Position numbers and translations under genes: made by a program
Shown here: positions 39,220 through 54,871 of the stretch, in pieces
Layout: each line of letters begins with the position of its first letter
Position numbering within the stretch: the first letter of the stretch is position 1
Notes under the pieces: model-generated
Database searches by the model: none
Told to the model about the DNA's origin: nothing
What the model saw: only the letters and a program-made list of their open reading frames with translations
NCBI GenBank assembly: GCA_007693555.1
Contig: REDJ01000108.1
Coordinates: 1-64,000 of the forward strand
Direction: 5' to 3'
DNA: 64,000 nt
Origin: Bacteroidota bacterium
GTDB taxonomy: Bacteria > Bacteroidota > Bacteroidia > Bacteroidales > UBA7960

Positions 39220-40404
39220 CTAAATAAATTCCAGATTGACTTCTTTGAGAAATTTTTCTTCAAGCAGATTTGCTATTTTTTTAGCCACACTGCGTCTGAT
39301 TTCCAGTTCAACAGGTAGATTGGGGTCTTGATGTGCAATGTTAACTGCTGTTCCTATACAGAGAAATATTTCGTCACTTTCAAGCAGCAGCTTAATAATG
39401 TTATCGGCAGGACCTTTCCCAAGCTCAGTTCTTTCGTTGTAATTTTCCAGAATTCCGGAAACTTTACTCAAAGTCAAAATTCCTTCAGTAACCAGTTCAA
39501 TTCCTTGCATATGAGAAATGGGAGGGAGGTCAGGATCATCGAACTCAAGGGTATCCTCTATGGGAATATCAAGTTTTAAAGAAATGATATCGGCAGTGGT
39601 ACCTCCGGCAATTATTTTTTTTCCGTTGAAGTTTTTTACTATTTCTGCCAGGTATTCATCTTTTTGCTTATCAAAGGGAGGACCTGAGCAAAGCAATAAT
39701 TTGCGGGGCTCTCTGAAGTAAACTACCGCAGTGCTTATATCATCCTTTGAGTAGTATTCATCATTTGAGTGAGCCTTGTTTACAATGGCAGATGCCAGTT
39801 TGGTTGCCGAGATCACTTTATTTGCCTTTACCTGGGAAAGAATAAGTTCACGGGTGTTATCCCAGCCAAAGCCCAGAAGATATTTTCCTTTTCCAAGCCC
39901 ACTTTGAGTTACACCATCAGTAAGCAATACTATCCTGTCCTCCTTTTGTGCCTTAAATGTACATGCCTGAATTTCTTTTCCTTTGTTACTGCCGGTTTCA
40001 AGTGTTATTGTGTGCCATTGGGTTTTGAATTCTTCTTCACCACGTAAAACTATGCTTTCAGGATTGTCATAATTGATGATGGTTGTCTGTCCGTTTTCTT
40101 CTATATCAACAATTGTAAAAGTGGCGTAACTTATTTTCCTTTCGCTACACACAGGCAGGGTGTTCATAATTATTTCGGCAATCTTATGTACATCCTTATG
40201 CTCAGCCGTAAAGTTTATGGCCATGGTAGCAGTAAGCGTAGCAAGCAGGTTTGCTTTTACTCCGTGCCCCATACCATCTGATAGTACTACAATTGTGCGG
40301 TTTTCTTCCTTGATTTTTCTGGAAAGAAAAATGTCCCCGCATATTCGCTCACCGGTATGACTTTTTTGTAAAACTCCAACCTCAATGTAAAAGGAATTGT
40401 CCAT
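39220..40404 (-). CDS. SpoIIE/PP2C-type serine/threonine phosphatase
   Basis: 'CGDIFLSRKIKEENRTIVVLSDGMGHGVKANLLATLTATMAINF', 'RIVLLTDGVTQSGLG', 'KDDISTAVVYFR'. Confidence 0.88.
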   Translation of the reverse strand: MDNSFYIEVGVLQKSHTGERICGDIFLSRKIKEENRTIVVLSDGMGHGVKANLLATLTATMAINFTAEHKDVHKIAEIIMNTLPVCSERKISYATFTIVDIEENGQTTIINYDNPESIVLRGEEEFKTQWHTITLETGSNKGKEIQACTFKAQKEDRIVLLTDGVTQSGLGKGKYLLGFGWDNTRELILSQVKANKVISATKLASAIVNKAHSNDEYYSKDDISTAVVYFREPRKLLLCSGPPFDKQKDEYLAEIVKNFNGKKIIAGGTTADIISLKLDIPIEDTLEFDDPDLPPISHMQGIELVTEGILTLSKVSGILENYNERTELGKGPADNIIKLLLESDEIFLCIGTAVNIAHQDPNLPVELEIRRSVAKKIANLLEEKFLKEVNLEFI

Positions 40405-40465: not shown

Positions 40466-42325
40466 TCAATCTTCAGGTTTTTTTACTTTTTTGTATGTTT
40501 CAATAATAGAATTAAGCATTTTTTCTGTTTTGGAAGCACCTTCTCCCAAGGAGAACGCAATTTTTTGTACCATTTTCAGGTTTTCGTCTATAACCTCAGT
40601 TACCCGGTTTATGATCTCCTCCTGTCTTACCTCTGCAACATACATATCACGAAATACTGCTCCCGCGATTTTGTTCTGCTTCAATGAGAAAACACTGATA
40701 TTGAGCAAACCTTCGTTAAAGTTGACATCCCGGCCCAGTACATTTTCATCTTTTTGCAATACATAATTGAAAAGATTATAAATGTTGTAGGGAAGTAATG
40801 TTTTCAAATCGGCACCAATAAGTCCGGGAATTACATCATTTATAAGTTTTGCATCATCTCCTAATATATTGACAAATGCGTCATTAGATTCTATTACTTT
40901 AAGCTTTTCATCAACTATCACCGCAGCAGAAGGGAGGTTATGTAGCAGTGAGGAAATGGTTTCTGACTGAGTTTTTATCTTTTGGTTTTCCGATTTCAGA
41001 AGTTTTTCATTTTCCTCCAGTTCCTTCTGTTTATTTCTTAGTTTTTCATTATTGGTTTTGAGTGTTTTTATAAAATCCTGCTTGTTTTTCAGGGAATAGG
41101 TAAGGCATGTGTTTGGTAGAGCCAGACCCTGGCCTACAGATATAGCAAATTCCCTGCAATTTCTGAAACCACAGGCATTGCAGGAAGATTTTTCATCCGG
41201 GGATTTACCCACTGATTTGAGAATTTCTTCAATTTTTTCCTCAACAGGGAATTCCAGCCGCTGGTCATCATTTATAAAAGAGCGAGAGAGATCCAGGTCT
41301 TTATACAATTCCATATTCTTTTCCCACTTTTTCTTGTCAAAGTCCTTCAAACGTTTTTTGGCATAATCAATGACAAGAGATTTTCTGAGAAATTTTCTGT
41401 CATCGGGTGTGGTGCCGGGCCCCATTAAGCATCCCTTGTTGTAAAAAAGATTAAAATGCTTTTTAAGAACTTCAGTACCCTGACTGAACTCATCAATGGC
41501 ATCCATAATATTGAACTTGCCATCGGTAGTGAATATGTTGCTGTCAATAAGATTTTCATTTAAACCTGCTGCTGAAATAATTCCTTTGCTATGCGGATAA
41601 AGTGAGCCCAGATAGCCTATGGGTTCATCAAAGTCAGAATACTCAACGGTAGATTCCTTGATATTGGCTTTTTTAAACATTTCACGCAATTCATGGAAAG
41701 TGAGCACAGCATCTACAGCTTTTTCATTCTTATGCCGGTTTGCTTCGTCTTTAGCCGAAACACATGGACCGATGAAAACCACTTTAATATCTTTACCGAA
41801 TTTTTTTCTTACAACCAAAGCAGTTGCTGTCATAGGTGTAACAATCGGGCTAAGATTGTTTATCATTTCGGGGTAGAATTTTTCTACATACGAAACGATA
41901 CTTGGGCAATTGGCAGTTATATAATACTTTCCTTTAAAATTGGAGAATAACTTTTTGTATTCCCTGGCTACCAAATCAACTCCGAATGATACCTCATTAA
42001 CATAGTCAAAACCGAGCTTGCGAATCATTTCCACAAATTTCCTATAATCGCTGATATCGGGAAACTCACCACTGATACTGGGATCAACAATAGCTGCAAC
42101 TTTACTTTTTGATTTCAATAATTCAAAGGTCTGATCCAATGAACTCAGATAGGATACAGCATTTACACCGCATACATTCAAACAACTGCCACAGCCTATA
42201 CATCTGTCATGGTTTATCTCAGGATACTCACTGTTTTTTTGAACCGTAATAGCCCTAACCGGACAAGCTCTGATGCAGGCATGTGAGCTGTTACATTTAT
42301 CAAGATCAATGTGTATTAGTTGCAT
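40466..42325 (-). CDS. HydS-like [FeFe]-hydrogenase-domain protein with ferredoxin, 4Fe-4S and PAS domains
   Basis: Ferredoxin-like 'CNSSHACIRACP...CIGCGSCLNVCG', H-cluster-domain motifs 'TANCPSIVSYVEKFYP', 'IGPCVSAKDE', 'YNKGCLMGPG', 'CNACGFRNCREFA', C-terminal PAS 'LLHNLPSAAVIVDEKLKVIESNDAFVNILG'. Confidence 0.9.
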   Translation of the reverse strand: MQLIHIDLDKCNSSHACIRACPVRAITVQKNSEYPEINHDRCIGCGSCLNVCGVNAVSYLSSLDQTFELLKSKSKVAAIVDPSISGEFPDISDYRKFVEMIRKLGFDYVNEVSFGVDLVAREYKKLFSNFKGKYYITANCPSIVSYVEKFYPEMINNLSPIVTPMTATALVVRKKFGKDIKVVFIGPCVSAKDEANRHKNEKAVDAVLTFHELREMFKKANIKESTVEYSDFDEPIGYLGSLYPHSKGIISAAGLNENLIDSNIFTTDGKFNIMDAIDEFSQGTEVLKKHFNLFYNKGCLMGPGTTPDDRKFLRKSLVIDYAKKRLKDFDKKKWEKNMELYKDLDLSRSFINDDQRLEFPVEEKIEEILKSVGKSPDEKSSCNACGFRNCREFAISVGQGLALPNTCLTYSLKNKQDFIKTLKTNNEKLRNKQKELEENEKLLKSENQKIKTQSETISSLLHNLPSAAVIVDEKLKVIESNDAFVNILGDDAKLINDVIPGLIGADLKTLLPYNIYNLFNYVLQKDENVLGRDVNFNEGLLNISVFSLKQNKIAGAVFRDMYVAEVRQEEIINRVTEVIDENLKMVQKIAFSLGEGASKTEKMLNSIIETYKKVKKPED

Positions 42326-42357: not shown

Positions 42358-42627
42358 TTATTTAACATCTTCATTTAAAAGTTTATTGCTGAGAATATCA
42401 ATAAGATTTGTATCCGTAATATGAAATATCTTTTCCTCATCAATTTGCATAACAGGCCCTTTATCGCAATGGCCCATGCAATGAGTACCTTTCAAAATAA
42501 CCTCGTCCTCAAGCTTGTGTTCCTTAAGATAGTCCTGTATTACCTTTACAAGTTTTTTATTACCTCTTGAAAAACAACTGCTTCCCATGCATATTACTAT
42601 GTTTTGGGGTTTTTCTGACATATTCAT
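42358..42627 (-). CDS. Thioredoxin-like [2Fe-2S] ferredoxin domain protein
   Basis: 'VICMGSSCFSRGNKKLVKVIQDYL...LKGTHCMGHCDKGPVMQIDEE' (NuoE-type four-Cys pattern). Confidence 0.9.
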   Translation of the reverse strand: MNMSEKPQNIVICMGSSCFSRGNKKLVKVIQDYLKEHKLEDEVILKGTHCMGHCDKGPVMQIDEEKIFHITDTNLIDILSNKLLNEDVK

Positions 42628-42966
42628 GAAAGGTTAAAGAGTTCCTGGATGAAATATAAAATCAGAAAACAGCAAAATTTACTTTGCTTTCTGAGTCTGC
42701 ATTTTCCAATAAAGTTTTAAAACACAGGAACAAAAATAAAGATTTGTGATGACATATGAGGTTAATTTACTAACATCTTTCATTTGAAATGCTTCTTCAT
42801 ATTTAATCTAAATAACATTAACGGTTTTATGCTGATTTATTGAATGTTAAGTTGTAATGATTCATCAATTTTTATCTATATTTGTGCATAATTCAATGCA
42901 ATAGCAAGAAAGGATTTGTAACAAAGTCACAAATATTTTTTTTATTTACGTGATTTGTTCCTAATA

Positions 42967-42984
42967 TTGTTAAAAAATTAGCAA
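42967..42984. promoter_or_regulatory. Rex-box-like palindrome
   Basis: TTGTTAAAAAATTAGCAA versus the Rex-type consensus TTGTTAANNNNTTAACAA (one mismatch), 8 nt before the ATG at 42993. Confidence 0.5.
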
Positions 42985-42992
42985 CCAAAATC

Positions 42993-45421: not shown

Positions 45422-47137
45422 ATGAGTTTTATTATTCATGTAAATAACACCCCGATTGAAGCCAAAGAAGGTGAAATCCTTCTGGATGTATTGCGTAGAA
45501 ATGGTATTAAAATACCTACTTTGTGCTATATGCCCGGTTTTACTCCATCAGGAGCCTGCAGATTGTGTGTTGTAGAGATGGAAGGGAAAAGAGACCTCAT
45601 CACATCCTGTTCTTATCCTGCAGAGGAAGACATGGTTATTAAAACCAACTCGCACAGAGTTATGAAGGCAAAAAAGTCGCTTGTTGAAATGTTGCTGAGC
45701 AATCACCCTGACGATTGTCTTTACTGCGAGCGTAATGGAAACTGTGAGCTGCAGTGGCTTGCTGAAGAAATGAATATCAAAGAACGTAAGTATTTCAGCG
45801 AAAAGAAAACCGATAAGCGCGACCACTCAAGTCCCAGTGTTTATCGTGATCCTGCCAAATGCATCCTTTGCAATCGTTGTGTGAGAGTTTGTGAGGAAGT
45901 TCAGCTCGTAACTGCCATTGAGTTTATATCCAGGGGAAATAAAACCACTGTAAATTCTGCCTTTAACAAAGGGTTAAATATTTCCAGTTGCATCAATTGC
46001 GGTCAATGTATCATGGTTTGTCCAACCGGTGCTTTGGTTGATATTTCTCATATTGAAAAGGTTCAGTCAGCACTTACCGGTTCCAAAAAATACCCGGTTG
46101 CACTGGTATCTCCGGCTTTTGTAGCTTCTATTACTGAGCAGTTAAACCTGAAGCCTTCAGATAAACCCGCCGGACTTATCACGGCAGCTCTGCACAAAAT
46201 TGGCTTTAAGAAGGTTTTTGATTTGGGCTTTTCCAGTGATATAAATGTTAAACTGGAGGCAATGCTTTTAAAAGAAAGGGCAGAAAAGAAAATCAAAAAA
46301 CCAGTATTCTCGTCCTGTTGCCCTGCCTGGATAAAATATGCTGAAGAATTTATACCTGAGATGATTTCTGATATTTCTATTGCAAAATCTCCACAACAAA
46401 TACTCGGTCATCTCGTAAAAAACCATAATAATGTTACACCTGATGATCCTGACAGACAGCTCTACACAGTTTCTTTTATGGCATGTGTGGCAAATAAATT
46501 TGAAGCATCACGTGAAGAGAATACACATAAAGGGATTTCAGAAATAGATGCAACACTTACAGTAAGAGAATTTAATAAAATGCTGCGCAGCTTTGGCATC
46601 AATATTTTACGTCTCGCACCTGAAAAATTTGATCTACCTTTCAATTCGGGTTCCAATGCAGGATTAAAAATGTCATACAGCGGAGGTAAAGCTGAAGCTG
46701 TTGCTTTAGAATTGAATAATATTATAAATGACACAAAATCAAATATAAAATTTACGCCTCCCAAAAATCCGGGAAGTAAAAAGGAAGTAAAGGTACAAAT
46801 TGGAAAACAGGAGTTTGGTTTTGCCTGGGTAAGCGGCATTGCTGAAGCCCAGAAATACTTTGATGAACTGAAAGCTGCAAATCGCACTGACATTCATTAT
46901 GTTGAAGTGATGGCCTGTCAGGGAGGCTGTGCGGGTGGAGGAGGTCAACCCATTCATTGGAGCTATGAAAAACCAAGGCAAAGAAAAAAATCTGCCCAGG
47001 ACCTGGAAAAAAATATCAAAATTCACTCTCCATCTCAAAATACTATGATGGAGGAGCATCTGTTAAAGTTTTTTTCATCCGGGGATGATTTGAAAACTTT
47101 GCATACCAGATTTAAAAAGAGAGAGGTATTAAAATAA
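45422..47137 (+). CDS. [FeFe]-hydrogenase HydA-like catalytic subunit (group A multimeric type, divergent)
   Basis: N-terminal [2Fe-2S] 'CYMPGFTPSGACRLCVVEM', His-Cys 'HPDDCLYCERNGNCELQ', 2x[4Fe-4S], H-cluster motifs 'SSCCPAW', 'FMACVANKFE', 'EVMACQGGCAGGGGQP'. Confidence 0.92.
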   Translation: MSFIIHVNNTPIEAKEGEILLDVLRRNGIKIPTLCYMPGFTPSGACRLCVVEMEGKRDLITSCSYPAEEDMVIKTNSHRVMKAKKSLVEMLLSNHPDDCLYCERNGNCELQWLAEEMNIKERKYFSEKKTDKRDHSSPSVYRDPAKCILCNRCVRVCEEVQLVTAIEFISRGNKTTVNSAFNKGLNISSCINCGQCIMVCPTGALVDISHIEKVQSALTGSKKYPVALVSPAFVASITEQLNLKPSDKPAGLITAALHKIGFKKVFDLGFSSDINVKLEAMLLKERAEKKIKKPVFSSCCPAWIKYAEEFIPEMISDISIAKSPQQILGHLVKNHNNVTPDDPDRQLYTVSFMACVANKFEASREENTHKGISEIDATLTVREFNKMLRSFGINILRLAPEKFDLPFNSGSNAGLKMSYSGGKAEAVALELNNIINDTKSNIKFTPPKNPGSKKEVKVQIGKQEFGFAWVSGIAEAQKYFDELKAANRTDIHYVEVMACQGGCAGGGGQPIHWSYEKPRQRKKSAQDLEKNIKIHSPSQNTMMEEHLLKFFSSGDDLKTLHTRFKKREVLK

Positions 47138-47192: not shown

Positions 47193-49229
47193 ATGGACAA
47201 TTCCGGTAAAAACCAGTTTATCTATACAGTGAAAGACCGCTGCAAGGTCTGTTACACTTGTGTAAGGGAATGTCCTGCCAAAGCCATAAAAATCATCAAT
47301 GGCCAGGCCGAGATCATAACAGAGCGCTGTATAGCCTGCGGTAATTGTGTTAAAGTTTGCAGCCGCGACGCGAAAATGTTCTCCTTTTCTATTGACAGGG
47401 TTAAGAAACTCATTAACGGACCCCACAAAGTAGCTGCAATAATTGCACCTAGTTTGGCAGGAGAGTTTATAGATATATCTGATTCTCAAACCCTTGTAGG
47501 GATGATAAAAGCACTGGGCTTTGATTATGTGAATGAAGTGGCTTTTGGTGCCGAACTTGTGGCTGAAGGATATAAAAAACTCCTGAAAAATGACCAGAAG
47601 CGAACATTTATTTCAACAAGTTGTCCTGCTATTGTCAGTTATGTTGAAAAACATCATCCCCAGATTGTAAATTCCCTTGCGCCCCTTGTTTCTCCAATGA
47701 TAGCTACTGCCAGGGTGCTGCATGAAATGCACGGAAAAGATCTGAAAATTGTTTTCATTGGTCCTTGTATTGCCAAAAAAGGGGAAGCCGCACTTGGGCA
47801 GTTTAAGGATTTGGTTCACGAAGTAATATCTTTTATTGAACTGCGTCGTATGTTTGAAGACAAAAAGATAACCCCTGGTAATATTGAACCCGCAGAGTTT
47901 GATCCCCCTATTGCCGGTAAAGGCTCAGTGTTTCCCATAAGTGGAGGAATGCTCCAAACCGTTGACCTGGAGGAAGACTTCCTGAAAGGTGAAATTGTTG
48001 TTGCTGAAGGGCGCCAGGATATTACAGAGGTTCTTAAAGAATTTGAAGAAGGATACCTGGAAGCAAAACTTTTCGACCTGTTATGCTGTAATGGATGTAT
48101 CAACGGACCAGGAATGAGCAACAGACAGCAATTCTTCCTGAAACGAAAGAATATCAGCAATTTTGCCAAAAGACAAACTGATAAAATGGATCAGAAAGAA
48201 TGGCAAAAGAATATAAAGCGATTTTCAGGCATCAAGCTCGAAAGATATTTTATTGCTGATGATCAGCGTTATCCATCAAATTTTAGTGATGAGGAAATCA
48301 AAAAGGTTAAATTAAAACTGGGTATTAAAAGTCAGGACGATGAGCTCAATTGCACTGCCTGTGGTTATGATTCATGTCATGAACATGCAATTGCCATTCT
48401 GAAGGGAATTGCAGAAACAGAAATGTGCCTGCCCTATACCATTGACAAACTGCATGAATATATTAAAGAACTGGATATTTCGAATAATAAACTGGCATCA
48501 ACCCAGGCTGCACTGAAACAATCAGAAAAACTGGCTTCCATGGGGCAGTTGGCTGCAGGTATAGCTCATGAAGTAAACAACCCACTGGGAGTAGTCATTA
48601 TGTATGCGCACCTACTTCTTGATGAGATAGAGCCCGATTCGCCATATTACAAAGATTTAAAACTTATCGTAGATCAGGCTGATAGGTGCAAGAAAATTGT
48701 TGGCGGATTGCTTAACTTTGCAAGAAAAAGCAAAGTAAATATTGCAGAGGTTGGTACCCGGTCTTTGATAAAAAGCAGCCTGAAAGCAGTTGTAATGCCT
48801 GCCAATATCGACCTCAAAATTGAGGTTAATACCGATAAACAAAAAATTGCCTGTGATCATGACCAAATGGTACAGGTATTTTCTAATCTTGCAAAGAATG
48901 CTGTTGATGCCATGTCTGAGGGGGGCGAGCTCATCATTAAGGTTGATGATGATCCGGTAGACCCCGAAGGAGTTATTTTTACAATTAAAGATACAGGTAC
49001 AGGTATTTCTCCTGAAAATATGGATCGTATGTTTGAGCCTTTTTTTACCACCAAAGATGACGGAAAAGGCACAGGACTGGGATTACCCATAATTTATGGT
49101 ATTGTAAAAATGCACAAAGGAAATATAAAGGTAGAATCCAATAACGATCCAAATAAAGGTAAAACCGGAACCAGTTTCTTTGTTTCCCTGCCCGGAAATA
49201 AAGAAAAAGTAAAAGCTATTGAGGATTGA
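47193..49229 (+). CDS. H-cluster-domain (HydS-like) sensor fused to histidine kinase
   Basis: Ferredoxin 'CKVCYTCVRECP...CIACGNCVKVCS', H-domain 'STSCPAIVSYVEKHHP', 'IGPCIAKKGEA', 'CCNGCINGPGM'; 'CTACGYDSCHEHA'; kinase 'MGQLAAGIAHEVNNPLGV', 'FFTTKDDGKGTGLGLPIIYGIV'. Confidence 0.93.
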   Translation: MDNSGKNQFIYTVKDRCKVCYTCVRECPAKAIKIINGQAEIITERCIACGNCVKVCSRDAKMFSFSIDRVKKLINGPHKVAAIIAPSLAGEFIDISDSQTLVGMIKALGFDYVNEVAFGAELVAEGYKKLLKNDQKRTFISTSCPAIVSYVEKHHPQIVNSLAPLVSPMIATARVLHEMHGKDLKIVFIGPCIAKKGEAALGQFKDLVHEVISFIELRRMFEDKKITPGNIEPAEFDPPIAGKGSVFPISGGMLQTVDLEEDFLKGEIVVAEGRQDITEVLKEFEEGYLEAKLFDLLCCNGCINGPGMSNRQQFFLKRKNISNFAKRQTDKMDQKEWQKNIKRFSGIKLERYFIADDQRYPSNFSDEEIKKVKLKLGIKSQDDELNCTACGYDSCHEHAIAILKGIAETEMCLPYTIDKLHEYIKELDISNNKLASTQAALKQSEKLASMGQLAAGIAHEVNNPLGVVIMYAHLLLDEIEPDSPYYKDLKLIVDQADRCKKIVGGLLNFARKSKVNIAEVGTRSLIKSSLKAVVMPANIDLKIEVNTDKQKIACDHDQMVQVFSNLAKNAVDAMSEGGELIIKVDDDPVDPEGVIFTIKDTGTGISPENMDRMFEPFFTTKDDGKGTGLGLPIIYGIVKMHKGNIKVESNNDPNKGKTGTSFFVSLPGNKEKVKAIED

Positions 49230-49245: not shown

Positions 49246-49644
49246 ATGCTGAAAATTGAGAAAAAGAAAATTCTATTGGTAGATGATGACCCCGATTATC
49301 TCCTGCAACTTAACATTGCACTGCAGGATATGGGATTTGAGGTTGTTGCTGCGGATACCCAACAGGAAGCAGAAAATATTATTGAAAAAATCAAACCCGA
49401 TTTAGCCATACTTGATCTGATGATGGAAAATCAGGATACTGGTTTCATCCTGTGTCATAAAATTAAAAATAAATATCCTGATGTACCTATTATCATTGCT
49501 TCGGCTGTAACTGCTGAAACAGGACTGCTGTTTGACGTAGAATCTGAAGAAGATAAAGAATGGATCAAAGCCGATCTGTTTCTTGATAAAGGTATAAGAA
49601 TGGATCAACTGCATAAGGAAATCAATAAATTGCTTAAAATATAG
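49246..49644 (+). CDS. Single-domain response regulator (REC)
   Basis: 'KILLVDDDPDYLLQL', 'PDLAILDLMMENQDTGF', 'DLFLDKGI'. Confidence 0.9.
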   Translation: MLKIEKKKILLVDDDPDYLLQLNIALQDMGFEVVAADTQQEAENIIEKIKPDLAILDLMMENQDTGFILCHKIKNKYPDVPIIIASAVTAETGLLFDVESEEDKEWIKADLFLDKGIRMDQLHKEINKLLKI

Positions 49645-49647
49645 GCA

Positions 49648-50772
49648 ATGGGAAAATTAAACCTGCTGGTAGTTGATGATGAACCCGGTATAAGAAGTGG
49701 AATAAAACGTATCCTGGAAAGTTTCTCCGTTAGCTACCCTTTCATGGATGAAGATTTTGATTTTGAAGTTCTGGAGGCAGAAACCGGGGAAGAAGCCATT
49801 GAGTTGCTTGACAATTACATGTTTGATATTGTACTGCTCGACAATAAGTTACCGGGTATCCAGGGCATAGATGTGCTTGAGTACATTAAAAAACAAGCTA
49901 TTGATGTAATAGTTGTCATGATTACATCCTATGCATCACTTGACCTTGCAGTAAAAGCCACCAAAAGCGGCGCTTACGACTTTGTTCCAAAACCCTTCAC
50001 ACCAAAGGAACTCAGAAGCTGTCTTGAAAATATTGCCAAGCAGCTTTTTTTGAGAAGAATGACGCAAAAGCTGCAGGTTGAGGGAAAACAAATAAGATTT
50101 CAGTTTTTATCTGTATTGTCACATGAATTAAAATCTCCCATCAATGCAATTGAAGGTTATCTGAGGTTGATGGAGGAAAAAAGAAACGGCGACAAGATTG
50201 ATAATTACATGGAAATGATCCAAAGGTCGTTGGCACGAGTACAGGATATGAGGAACCTTATTCTGGATTTATTGGATTTTACCCGAATAGAATCCGGAAA
50301 AAAACAAAGAAATATCAAACCGGTTGACCTATGTGAAGTTGCATCGCAATCCATTGATTTGATGCAGCCCCTGTGTATTCAAAAAGATATTGATATTCAT
50401 TTGAATTGTAATAAAAAAATTTCTTTACAGGCAGATAAACAAGAGCTGGAAATCATCTTCAATAACCTGTTGTCAAATGCTGTAAAATACAATAAACAAA
50501 GTGGAAGAATTGATGTGGGACTTTTTCAGGAAAAGGGAGAAATTAAACTTAGCGTAAGTGATACAGGCATTGGAATGGAAAAGAAAGACTTAGAAAAGCT
50601 TTTTGAAGATTTTGTCAGAATTAAAAGTGAGCAAACAAAACATATAAGTGGTACGGGGTTAGGTTTATCGCTCGTAAAAAAAATAGCAGATTTGTACGAT
50701 GCCAAAATTGAAGTTGAGAGCATACCCGATGAGGGGAGTACTTTTACTATTAGGTTTCCTTTTTCCGAATAG
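49648..50772 (+). CDS. REC-histidine kinase hybrid
   Basis: 'LLVVDDEPGIRSGIKRIL...DIVLLDNKLPGIQGIDV'; HisKA 'FLSVLSHELKSPINAIEGYLRLM'; 'SGTGLGLSLVKKI'. Confidence 0.93.
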   Translation: MGKLNLLVVDDEPGIRSGIKRILESFSVSYPFMDEDFDFEVLEAETGEEAIELLDNYMFDIVLLDNKLPGIQGIDVLEYIKKQAIDVIVVMITSYASLDLAVKATKSGAYDFVPKPFTPKELRSCLENIAKQLFLRRMTQKLQVEGKQIRFQFLSVLSHELKSPINAIEGYLRLMEEKRNGDKIDNYMEMIQRSLARVQDMRNLILDLLDFTRIESGKKQRNIKPVDLCEVASQSIDLMQPLCIQKDIDIHLNCNKKISLQADKQELEIIFNNLLSNAVKYNKQSGRIDVGLFQEKGEIKLSVSDTGIGMEKKDLEKLFEDFVRIKSEQTKHISGTGLGLSLVKKIADLYDAKIEVESIPDEGSTFTIRFPFSE

Positions 50773-50891: not shown

Positions 50892-51542
50892 ATGAACCCA
50901 AAAAAAAGCAGGGAGCTACCCGGCAAAACCATTGAGCGCCTGAGCCAGTACAGAAGAATTTTATTTAACAGCATCAATCAGGGTAAAACCAATATATATT
51001 CGCATGAACTTGCGAATATGATGAATCTTACACCTGTGCAGGTAAGACGAGACCTTATGCTTATAGGATACTCAGGAAGCCAGAGCAAAGGATATGTAAT
51101 AAAAGATCTGGTAAATCTTATTGGGAAAATAATTGACAGTGAACAACCGCAGAAGGTTGCAATTGTGGGAATGGGTAATCTTGGCAGAGCCATAACCAGC
51201 TATTTCACCGGGAAAAGAGAGCGACTGAGTATTGTGGCAGCATTTGATAATGATGTTCAGAAAGCAAACCGTATCATTTCGGGTGTACCCTGTCATCATA
51301 TAAATCAAATTGAAGAAATATTGCCTAAAGAAAATATTAAAATAGCCATACTTACTGTTTCTCCCGAAGCAACCTATGATGTTGCAAAAATGCTCATGAA
51401 TGCAGGTATAAAAGGTATTTTAAACTATACTTCAGTGCCTCTTACCGTACCGGAAGGAATATTTCTTGAAGAATACGATATAGTAACTTCGCTTGAAAAG
51501 CTGGCTTTTTTTGTGAAAAATGACACAGAGAATAAAGAATAA
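50892..51542 (+). CDS. rex: Redox-sensing transcriptional repressor Rex
   Basis: 'LPGKTIERLSQYRRIL', 'LTPVQVRRDLMLIGYSGSQSKGYVI', Rossmann 'VAIVGMGNLGRAITSYF', 'GIKGILNYTSVPLTVPEGIFLEEYDIVTSLEKLAFFV'. Confidence 0.95.
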   Translation: MNPKKSRELPGKTIERLSQYRRILFNSINQGKTNIYSHELANMMNLTPVQVRRDLMLIGYSGSQSKGYVIKDLVNLIGKIIDSEQPQKVAIVGMGNLGRAITSYFTGKRERLSIVAAFDNDVQKANRIISGVPCHHINQIEEILPKENIKIAILTVSPEATYDVAKMLMNAGIKGILNYTSVPLTVPEGIFLEEYDIVTSLEKLAFFVKNDTENKE

Positions 51543-53443: not shown

Positions 53444-54871
53444 ATGATATACCACCCTGAAATATACAGTATTAAGGATCAAAGGATGAAACCATTTATT
53501 GATCCTGACGAGATATGGAACTTGATAAATCACTCAAAAGGCGACAAAAAAAGGGTAAGAGAAATTATTCAGGCTTCATTGGACAAAAAGAGGCTTTCTC
53601 TGGAGGAAACAGCTATACTTATCAATGCAGAAAATCCCGATTTAATTGAGGAAATAAAAGAGGGTGCCAGAACACTCAAGGAAAAAGTGTATGGTGAACG
53701 CATTGTACTTTTTGCCCCTTTGTATGTAGGTGATCTGTGTACCAACAATTGCCAATACTGTGGGTTCAGGTCGGAGAACAAGGAAATGAAGCGTATTACA
53801 CTCAGCAGAGACGAATTGATCACTGAAACCATGGCATTGATAGATCAGGGCCATAAGAGATTAATCCTTGTATACGGTGAGCATCCCAAATATTCTGCTG
53901 AATTTATCGCAGATACTGTAAAGATTGTATACGGAGTAAAACATAATAATGGAGAAATTCGTCGTGTCAATATAAATGCTGCACCTTTTGATATACAGGG
54001 GTTTCGTACAATAAAGGACTCCGGGATCGGTACTTTCCAGATTTTCCAGGAAACTTATCATGAACCCACATATGCCAAAGTACACCTTGGAGGTGTAAAA
54101 AGAAATTACGATTGGCGTTTGACTGCGCTGGATCGCGCACAGGAAGCAGGCATTGATGATGTGGGAATAGGTGCACTTTTCGGATTATACGATTGGCGTT
54201 TTGAAGTTCTGGGACTTGTTCGCCATGTTAACCATTTTGAAGCAGTTTACAAGGTTGGGCCTCACACCATAAGCTTTCCCAGGGTTCAGAATGCATTGAA
54301 ACTAAATATAAGCAAAGATTATTTGGTTAAGGACGATGAGTTTGTCCGTTTGGTTTCAATACTTCGTCTTGCTGTACCCTATACCGGAATGATTTTGACT
54401 GCCCGTGAACCCAGACACATACGCGATCAGGTATTGCGATTCGGAGTATCACAAATTGACGGGGGCACAAACCTTGAGCTTGGTGGCTACTCAAAAGCCA
54501 AAAAAGATACCCAGGATCTTACCATGGAACAGTTTCAGATTAATGACAATCGTTCGCTCAATGAGATAATGGATGAATTAATAAAAACAGGTTATATCCC
54601 TTCATTTTGTACAGCCTGTTACAGGCTTGGAAGAACAGGTGAGCATTTTATGGAATTTTCTGTTCCGGGTTTTATCAAAAGATTTTGTTCACCTAATGCA
54701 TTGCTTACCCTGGCCGAGTACCTTGAAGATTATGCTCCACAGGATACAAAAGAAAAAGGGTATAAGCTTATTGATAAAAAAATATCAGAACTATCTGAAA
54801 ATCAAAATGTTGAAAGACTCAGGGAAAAGGTTAAAATGGTTAAAGACGGCAAACGTGATTTATATTTTTAA
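53444..54871 (+). CDS. hydG: [FeFe]-hydrogenase H-cluster radical SAM maturase HydG
   Basis: Radical SAM CxxxCxxC 'CTNNCQYCG'; C-terminal CX2CX22C 'CTACYRLGRTGEHFMEFSVPGFIKRFC' (counted 22). Confidence 0.96.
   Translation: MIYHPEIYSIKDQRMKPFIDPDEIWNLINHSKGDKKRVREIIQASLDKKRLSLEETAILINAENPDLIEEIKEGARTLKEKVYGERIVLFAPLYVGDLCTNNCQYCGFRSENKEMKRITLSRDELITETMALIDQGHKRLILVYGEHPKYSAEFIADTVKIVYGVKHNNGEIRRVNINAAPFDIQGFRTIKDSGIGTFQIFQETYHEPTYAKVHLGGVKRNYDWRLTALDRAQEAGIDDVGIGALFGLYDWRFEVLGLVRHVNHFEAVYKVGPHTISFPRVQNALKLNISKDYLVKDDEFVRLVSILRLAVPYTGMILTAREPRHIRDQVLRFGVSQIDGGTNLELGGYSKAKKDTQDLTMEQFQINDNRSLNEIMDELIKTGYIPSFCTACYRLGRTGEHFMEFSVPGFIKRFCSPNALLTLAEYLEDYAPQDTKEKGYKLIDKKISELSENQNVERLREKVKMVKDGKRDLYF

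Follow-up and report, generated by a model that had tools for sequence, protein, structure and literature searches.

Gene organization of the hydrogenase locus

The window, i.e. the whole stretch of 64,000 nucleotides analysed here, derives from an uncultured Bacteroidales-type bacterium. It contains genes for a HydC-, a HydB- and a HydA-like subunit, followed by those for a hydrogenase-like sensor, two receiver proteins, the redox repressor Rex and the maturase HydG, while a module of three genes is transcribed divergently (Table 1). The genome encodes three hydrogenase catalytic subunits, one of which is the product of the HydA-like open reading frame, 571 amino acids long. Clades I and II refer to the phylogeny described below; pocket residues are numbered as in CpI, on which the numbering was checked.

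Table 1. Features of the hydrogenase locus and its surroundings (positions in the window)
Feature	Coordinates	Strand	Evidence and remarks
dnaA	29458-30903	-	about 10 kb from the hydrogenase locus
SpoIIE-type phosphatase	39220-40404	-	PF07228, 1.6e-18; clade II loci
FeHydPAS, degenerate hydrogenase-like protein	40466-42325	-	2x[4Fe-4S], H-domain, CX2CX4CX16C site; clade II loci only
Small thioredoxin-like [2Fe-2S] ferredoxin	42358-42627	-	PF01257; first gene of the divergent module; clade II loci
Divergent promoter region	42628-42992		several imperfect inverted repeats, e.g. arms 42733-42749 / 42927-42943
HydC-like thioredoxin-fold [2Fe-2S] subunit, 160 aa	42993-43475	+	PF01257, 1.2e-47; all four Cys conserved
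HydB-like subunit, 649 aa	43462-45411	+	Pfam Complex1_51K, NADH_4Fe-4S, Fer4
HydA-like subunit, clade II	45422-47137	+	N-terminal Fe-S domains (residues 1-215) intact; H-domain (216-512) altered
HydS/'T'-like sensor	47193-49229	+	2x[4Fe-4S], H-domain, CX2CX4CX16C site, HisKA-HATPase; syntenic in clades I and II
Stand-alone receiver domain (response regulator)	49246-49644	+	domain search; syntenic
Receiver-histidine kinase hybrid	49648-50772	+	domain search; syntenic
Rex redox repressor (NAD+/NADH sensing)	50892-51542	+	NF003995, 208 bits (cut-off 126)
hydG maturase (radical SAM)	53444-54871	+	TIGR03955, 509 bits (cut-off 312)

The HydB-like subunit is composed of an N-terminal [2Fe-2S]-type domain, an FMN/NADH domain, a [4Fe-4S] site and a C-terminal 2x[4Fe-4S] segment. 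Its cluster cysteines and those of HydC are kept as in the relatives, including clade I. The subunits that characterize BfuABC complexes, HydB with FMN and the B clusters and HydC with its cluster cysteines, are accordingly present, bifurcation itself being predicted. Next to HydA lies a group C-type hydrogenase carrying a histidine kinase, the hallmark of BfuABC-T loci; the H-domain of this sensor keeps its own cluster cysteines and the equivalent of K358. All three maturases are encoded in the genome, hydG within the locus and hydE and hydF on another contig; hydG also lies inside many other loci of both clades. The rex gene is located downstream in most clade II loci, but many clade I loci outside Bacteroidota have it upstream. 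A search of the divergent promoter region for Rex boxes gave no site above chance, and the genes identified in the locus include no formate dehydrogenase.

In the pocket of FeHydPAS the equivalents of K358 and C499 are Ala and Asn, respectively. Among its aligned relatives the former lysine is lost in 16 of 16 and the cysteine is replaced by Asn, His or Asp in most, unlike in the kinase-fused sensor relatives, which mostly keep both. FeHydPAS is possibly a sensor that now lacks an H-cluster. Its PAS region is putative, as a Pfam search of the protein returned no PAS match.

Active-site pocket of the HydA-like subunit

According to Pfam the group A architecture is complete, with Fer2_4, NADH-G_4Fe-4S_3, 2x[4Fe-4S] and the H-domain (Fe_hyd_lg_C, 1e-64). 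The accessory motifs for the [2Fe-2S], the His-ligated [4Fe-4S] and the two further [4Fe-4S] clusters are present, and across the aligned family neither their cysteines nor H95 vary. Full-length comparison gives 34-36% identity with the HydA proteins of T. maritima and T. kivui. With TIGR02512 (FeFe_hydrog_A), however, it scores 331.6 and 333.4 bits, below the curated cut-off of 405.95. This cut-off is likewise missed by all clade II-type proteins listed for the family, whereas clade II proteins of other families, clade I proteins and canonical HydA pass it.

The pocket was examined by aligning the protein in MAFFT with CpI and the HydA proteins of T. maritima and T. kivui. The original prediction, made from the sequence alone, had described an H-cluster pocket with all cluster-ligating cysteines of L1, L2 and L3 but with a non-canonical L2, and the alignments agree. 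L1 reads SSCCPAWI, with C299 and C300 kept, and L3 reads EVMACQGGCAGGGGQP, with M497, C499 and C503 kept, so that the cubane and bridging cysteines C300, C355, C499 and C503 are all in place. In L2 the group A motif MPCxxKK is replaced by MACVANK (in full MACVANKFE, codons atg gca tgt gtg gca aat aaa for its first seven residues): M353, C355, K359 and E361 are retained, while P354 is changed to Ala and K358, which we take to be the usual lysine contacting a diiron cyanide ligand, to Asn. L2 is aligned without a gap, hence K358N is not the result of an alignment shift. A frameshift in L2 was equally rejected, since K359 is invariant and the same state is seen in 12 genomes.

The proton path C299-E279-S319-E282 is incomplete: as had also been proposed from a hand alignment, E282 is replaced by Leu while the other three residues persist; R286 is kept, too. 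Further substitutions, not listed in the original prediction, are A230S, S232A, T297S, F417M, A419Y, V423K and M424A, with YSGGKA in place of FGATGGVM. Neither a PAS domain nor a C-terminal CX2CX4CX16C site is present in the protein. K358, P354, E282, F417 and V423 are unchanged in the two canonical paralogues that this genome encodes and in all 50 clade I homologues.

Counts within the genus separate the two L2 substitutions. K358N is common to all 12 genomes examined of the window's genus, and sequencing noise was consequently dismissed as the source of the changes; P354A occurs in only five of these and is not fixed there.

Phylogeny and residue variation in clades I and II

Matches to the protein were found in 45 of 47 genomes of the window's family, four of them, from two genera, being of the canonical clade I type, and in 128 of 393 genomes of an order-level sample. 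Most of the latter carry the same lineage at 38-50% identity, which at this level also occurs in Planctomycetes, Hydrogenedentes, Acidobacteria and others. In a FastTree phylogeny this lineage, with its HydC-HydB-HydA-sensor-kinase organization of the BfuABC-T type, splits into clade I and clade II, with supports of 98 for both Bacteroidota sides. Clade I comprises 50 rows and clade II 59, the latter from Bacteroidota only in this sample; as the rows were collected for their similarity to the window's family, their counts do not represent frequencies in nature.

The two clades differ markedly in their pockets. None of the 50 clade I rows departs from the canonical residue at 230, 279, 282, 286, 299, 319, 353, 354, 358, 417, 423 or 497, and over a tree length of 13.0 there is no change at 17 of 18 positions. 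In clade II the minimum numbers of changes on the tree are 11 at position 279, 21 at 282, 4 at 299, 8 at 353, 6 at 358, 23 at 417 and 11 at 423, compared to none at any of these in clade I; positions 230, 286 and 319 also change repeatedly, A230S being near-universal. In contrast, C300, C355, K359, E361, M497, C499 and C503 show zero changes in all 59 clade II rows. This combination of invariant ligands with a varying second shell and proton path was counted in favor of repurposing.

Which residues are lost depends on the branch. Outside the window's family E279 is missing from 21 of 24 clade II rows. Within the family, E282 is lost in 34 of 35 rows of the clade II type and K423 is found in 35 of 35; position 417 is mostly Met or Leu. 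K358 was lost at least four times within the family, and beyond the window's genus a few members carry Asn or Glu there. As K358N and K358E arise inside the 35 rows that share K423, the acquisition of K423 preceded the loss of K358 on the tree, and the new invariant lysine may, judging from these alignments, partly offset that loss.

Other departures were noted in the sample. A separate clade II branch (loci L102, L106, L110 and L113) combines C299A, K358M, M353T and the loss of E279, a HydS-like pocket within a HydABC complex. Several clade II lineages (L061, L062, L128 and L131) have Asp at the proton-donor cysteine (C299D); an SSDCP version of L1 also occurs in many kinase-fused sensor proteins. 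TSCSPGW, with Ser at the C300 ligand position, is found in canonical HydA, as in A. woodii HydA, namely in locus L001 (1300-3081, minus strand) and in planctomycete clade I loci.

Divergence, selection and genome context

When the window's genome is compared with its congeners, the H-domain of the HydA-like protein is only 59-71% identical. In the same genome pairs its N-domain reaches 80-92%, HydB 80-89%, and the H-domain of canonical HydA 95-99% in the C133 copy and 89-93% in the C141 copy. Pairwise dN/dS of the altered H-domain is about 0.07 versus 0.01-0.03 for the canonical ones, rough values given that dS is near saturation; the H-domain is thus still under purifying selection. Of the columns invariant in clade I, the window's family has lost 32 of 87 in the H-domain but 5 of 54 in the N-domain. 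At the same time it has gained the near-invariant residues S230, S297, K423, A424 and W469, the first four of which adjoin the cluster. Fast divergence under purifying selection together with new near-invariant residues is, as far as these alignments can tell, the pattern of a changed function and not of decay.

Relaxed selection on the way to a pseudogene, or an assembly artefact, would fit the faster evolution of the H-domain and the loss of clade I-invariant columns. However, the reading frame is intact in all relatives examined, the operon is conserved, new invariant residues have appeared and the same changes recur in many independent metagenome-assembled genomes. A pseudogene is ruled out by the intact frames and the dN/dS, and this explanation as a whole is very improbable.

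The genomic surroundings of the two clades differ as well. The other two HydA proteins of the window's genome both have canonical pockets. A further canonical HydA scoring above the cut-off is encoded in 28 of 31 clade II genomes compared to 3 of 17 clade I genomes (p = 7e-7, a value that ignores relatedness); restricted to genomes of other families, the ratio is 10 of 10 to 3 of 13. The divergent SpoIIE/FeHydPAS module accompanies 19 of 19 loci in clade II but 0 of 32 in clade I, counting those in which the contig reaches the upstream DNA.

Predicted structure and state of the H-cluster

The AlphaFold model of the H-domain, based on 73 sequences, has a pLDDT of 92 and superimposes on CpI with a TM score of 0.91; the predicted fold is therefore intact. 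The full-length model (18 sequences) is poor in the Fe-S region, with a pLDDT of 67.

In CpI, V423 lines the central cavity of the diiron site and switches its rotamer when [2Fe] is absent, and F417 touches [2Fe] (PMC5954619). Replacement of both throughout the family by Lys and mostly Met or Leu could mean that the diiron site is unused: K423 together with the smaller residues at 417 would fill the [2Fe] cavity, only the cubane would be built, and the protein, its Fe-S wire and HydBC partners intact, would serve in an NADH:ferredoxin oxidoreductase or as a redox sensor, comparable in function to HylABC except that L1-L3 persist. The repeated loss of K358 is in line with this, although that lysine survives in many members of the family's other genera. 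Moreover, C503, which bridges to [2Fe], M497 and a GGGGQP loop are kept, C299 is maintained family-wide, and HylA, which has no H-cluster, has lost L1-L3 entirely (PMC6085437). A diiron-free enzyme hence appears unlikely. Much the same doubt attaches to a variant in which V423K and the loss of F417 and K358 would have replaced or re-coordinated the diiron site, giving a diiron-free or diiron-modified NADH/ferredoxin sensor that drives the kinase/phosphatase network.

A third, condition-specific HydABC complex that is re-tuned yet metabolically active would instead possess a normal H-cluster, with the second shell altering direction, affinity or tolerance to CO and O2. Retention of all ligands, of M497 and of the bifurcating HydBC core and the presence of hydG within the locus are consistent with it, as are CpI mutants: E282A retains roughly half of the activity (E282Q, by contrast, about 8%) and C299D much of it (PMC6226526), while clade II shows E282 loss, by itself weak evidence for an altered core, and C299D in several lineages. 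CpII, active and biased to H2 uptake, carries A230S and M353T (PMC5506873), likewise seen in clade II. On the other hand, the H-domain evolves much faster in the window's genus than the canonical HydA of the same genomes, and changes at 282, 417, 353 and 358 continue without settling into a new set of residues, the family's K423 and Y419 excepted, which is a poor fit with tight optimization of a fast catalyst. A role of this kind is considered less probable than a regulatory one. The literature searched yielded no report of a K358N mutant and no paper on the cyanide contact of K358.

Comparison with known hydrogenases

The closest counterpart is the group A3 BfuABC with a 'T' histidine-kinase subunit, similar to sub-type V, from Hydrogenedentota (PMC11406978), with the same operon of HydC, HydB, HydA and a group C-type hydrogenase-kinase. 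Its P2 motif is reported as xxMPCxAKK and P1-P3 as generally conserved (PMC11406978). Clade I corresponds to this organization with a canonical pocket; the window's clade II departs from it in P2 and the proton path and adds the divergent phosphatase/hydrogenase-PAS module. With the bifurcating HydABC of T. maritima and T. kivui (7p5h, 8a6t) the window protein shares accessory clusters, partners and full-length homology, but MPCxxKK, E282, F417 and V423 of these enzymes are without exception changed in it.

Sensory HydS of groups C and D (TmHydS, TamHydS) display low activity, a modified proton path and substitutions at 299, 353, 417 and 497 (PMC10055695, PMC8163306, PMC11803613). Clade II shares the disturbance of proton path and second shell, and parts of it have independently arrived at closer parallels (E279 to a hydrophobic residue, C299A, M353T, F417Y). 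Contrary to HydS, where C299 and M497 are not conserved, the window HydA and its family keep both, and the protein keeps M353 and the group A N-terminal domains; HydS has a CX2CX4CX16C site after the H-domain, and in group C a PAS domain as well, and this site is present in the two neighboring H-domain proteins instead. HylABC, linked to formate dehydrogenase, sets a precedent for HydABC complexes that have left H2 chemistry behind. Membership in this group was excluded, since HylA lacks L1-L3 (PMC6085437) and the window protein has all ligand cysteines. CpII of C. pasteurianum has A230S in common with the window protein but differs in architecture, and the part of the report consulted mentions no change of K358 or V423 (PMC5506873). 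A description of clade II was not found in the literature searched, the coverage of which left out most subscription journals.

Proposed role

The initial view, in which the core is altered and does not belong to a standard H2 enzyme, finds good support, and the pattern is much broader than first seen; an inactive, a sensory and a merely re-tuned protein are all candidates. A dead enzyme is not implied, as all cluster-ligating residues are invariant and all three maturases are encoded.

We favor, at a probability of roughly 0.5, a HydABC complex that no longer serves bulk H2 turnover and became a re-tuned, probably slow, regulatory hydrogenase, followed by the re-tuned metabolic enzyme and then the diiron-free redox device. 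The HydA-like protein would be the A subunit of the third complex, of the BfuABC type, in this genome, and the active site of its lineage would have been freed from fast H2 turnover and then re-tuned, probably because two other, canonical HydABC hydrogenases are available. Electrons would still move between NADH/FMN and ferredoxin in HydB/HydC and would reach the buried cluster through the intact Fe-S wire of HydA. The H-domain presumably builds at least the [4Fe-4S] cubane and most likely a full H-cluster, which a second shell of S230, M417, Y419, K423 and N358 and a proton path without E282 would render slow and shifted in potential. Most likely the complex would signal H2 and the NADH/ferredoxin state to its neighbors; candidate recipients are the HydS-like hydrogenase-kinase, the two receiver proteins, FeHydPAS, the SpoIIE phosphatase and Rex.

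The hydrogenase-kinase also neighbors canonical clade I HydA, therefore it is by itself no marker of a sensory HydA. Several features count against a regulatory use: HydB and HydC are complete and retain every cluster cysteine, which points to a functional bifurcating enzyme, M497 is invariant although the sensory groups C and D have lost it, the HydA-like protein is devoid of both PAS domain and C-terminal CX2CX4CX16C site, and the A230S of clade II is shared with the active, though uptake-biased, CpII (PMC5506873).

Second-shell and proton-path residues of [FeFe]-hydrogenases have so far been known mostly from engineered mutants and two sensory enzymes. Clade II constitutes a repeated natural experiment, in which the ligands are fixed and E279, E282, C299, M353, K358, F417 and V423 are varied, and its sister clade I, which shares the operon but has kept the pocket canonical, provides matched natural pairs for the roles of K358, V423 and the proton path. 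A bifurcating hydrogenase complex has here apparently been recruited to another role. In metagenomes, counts of HydA genes should not be equated with H2 capacity.
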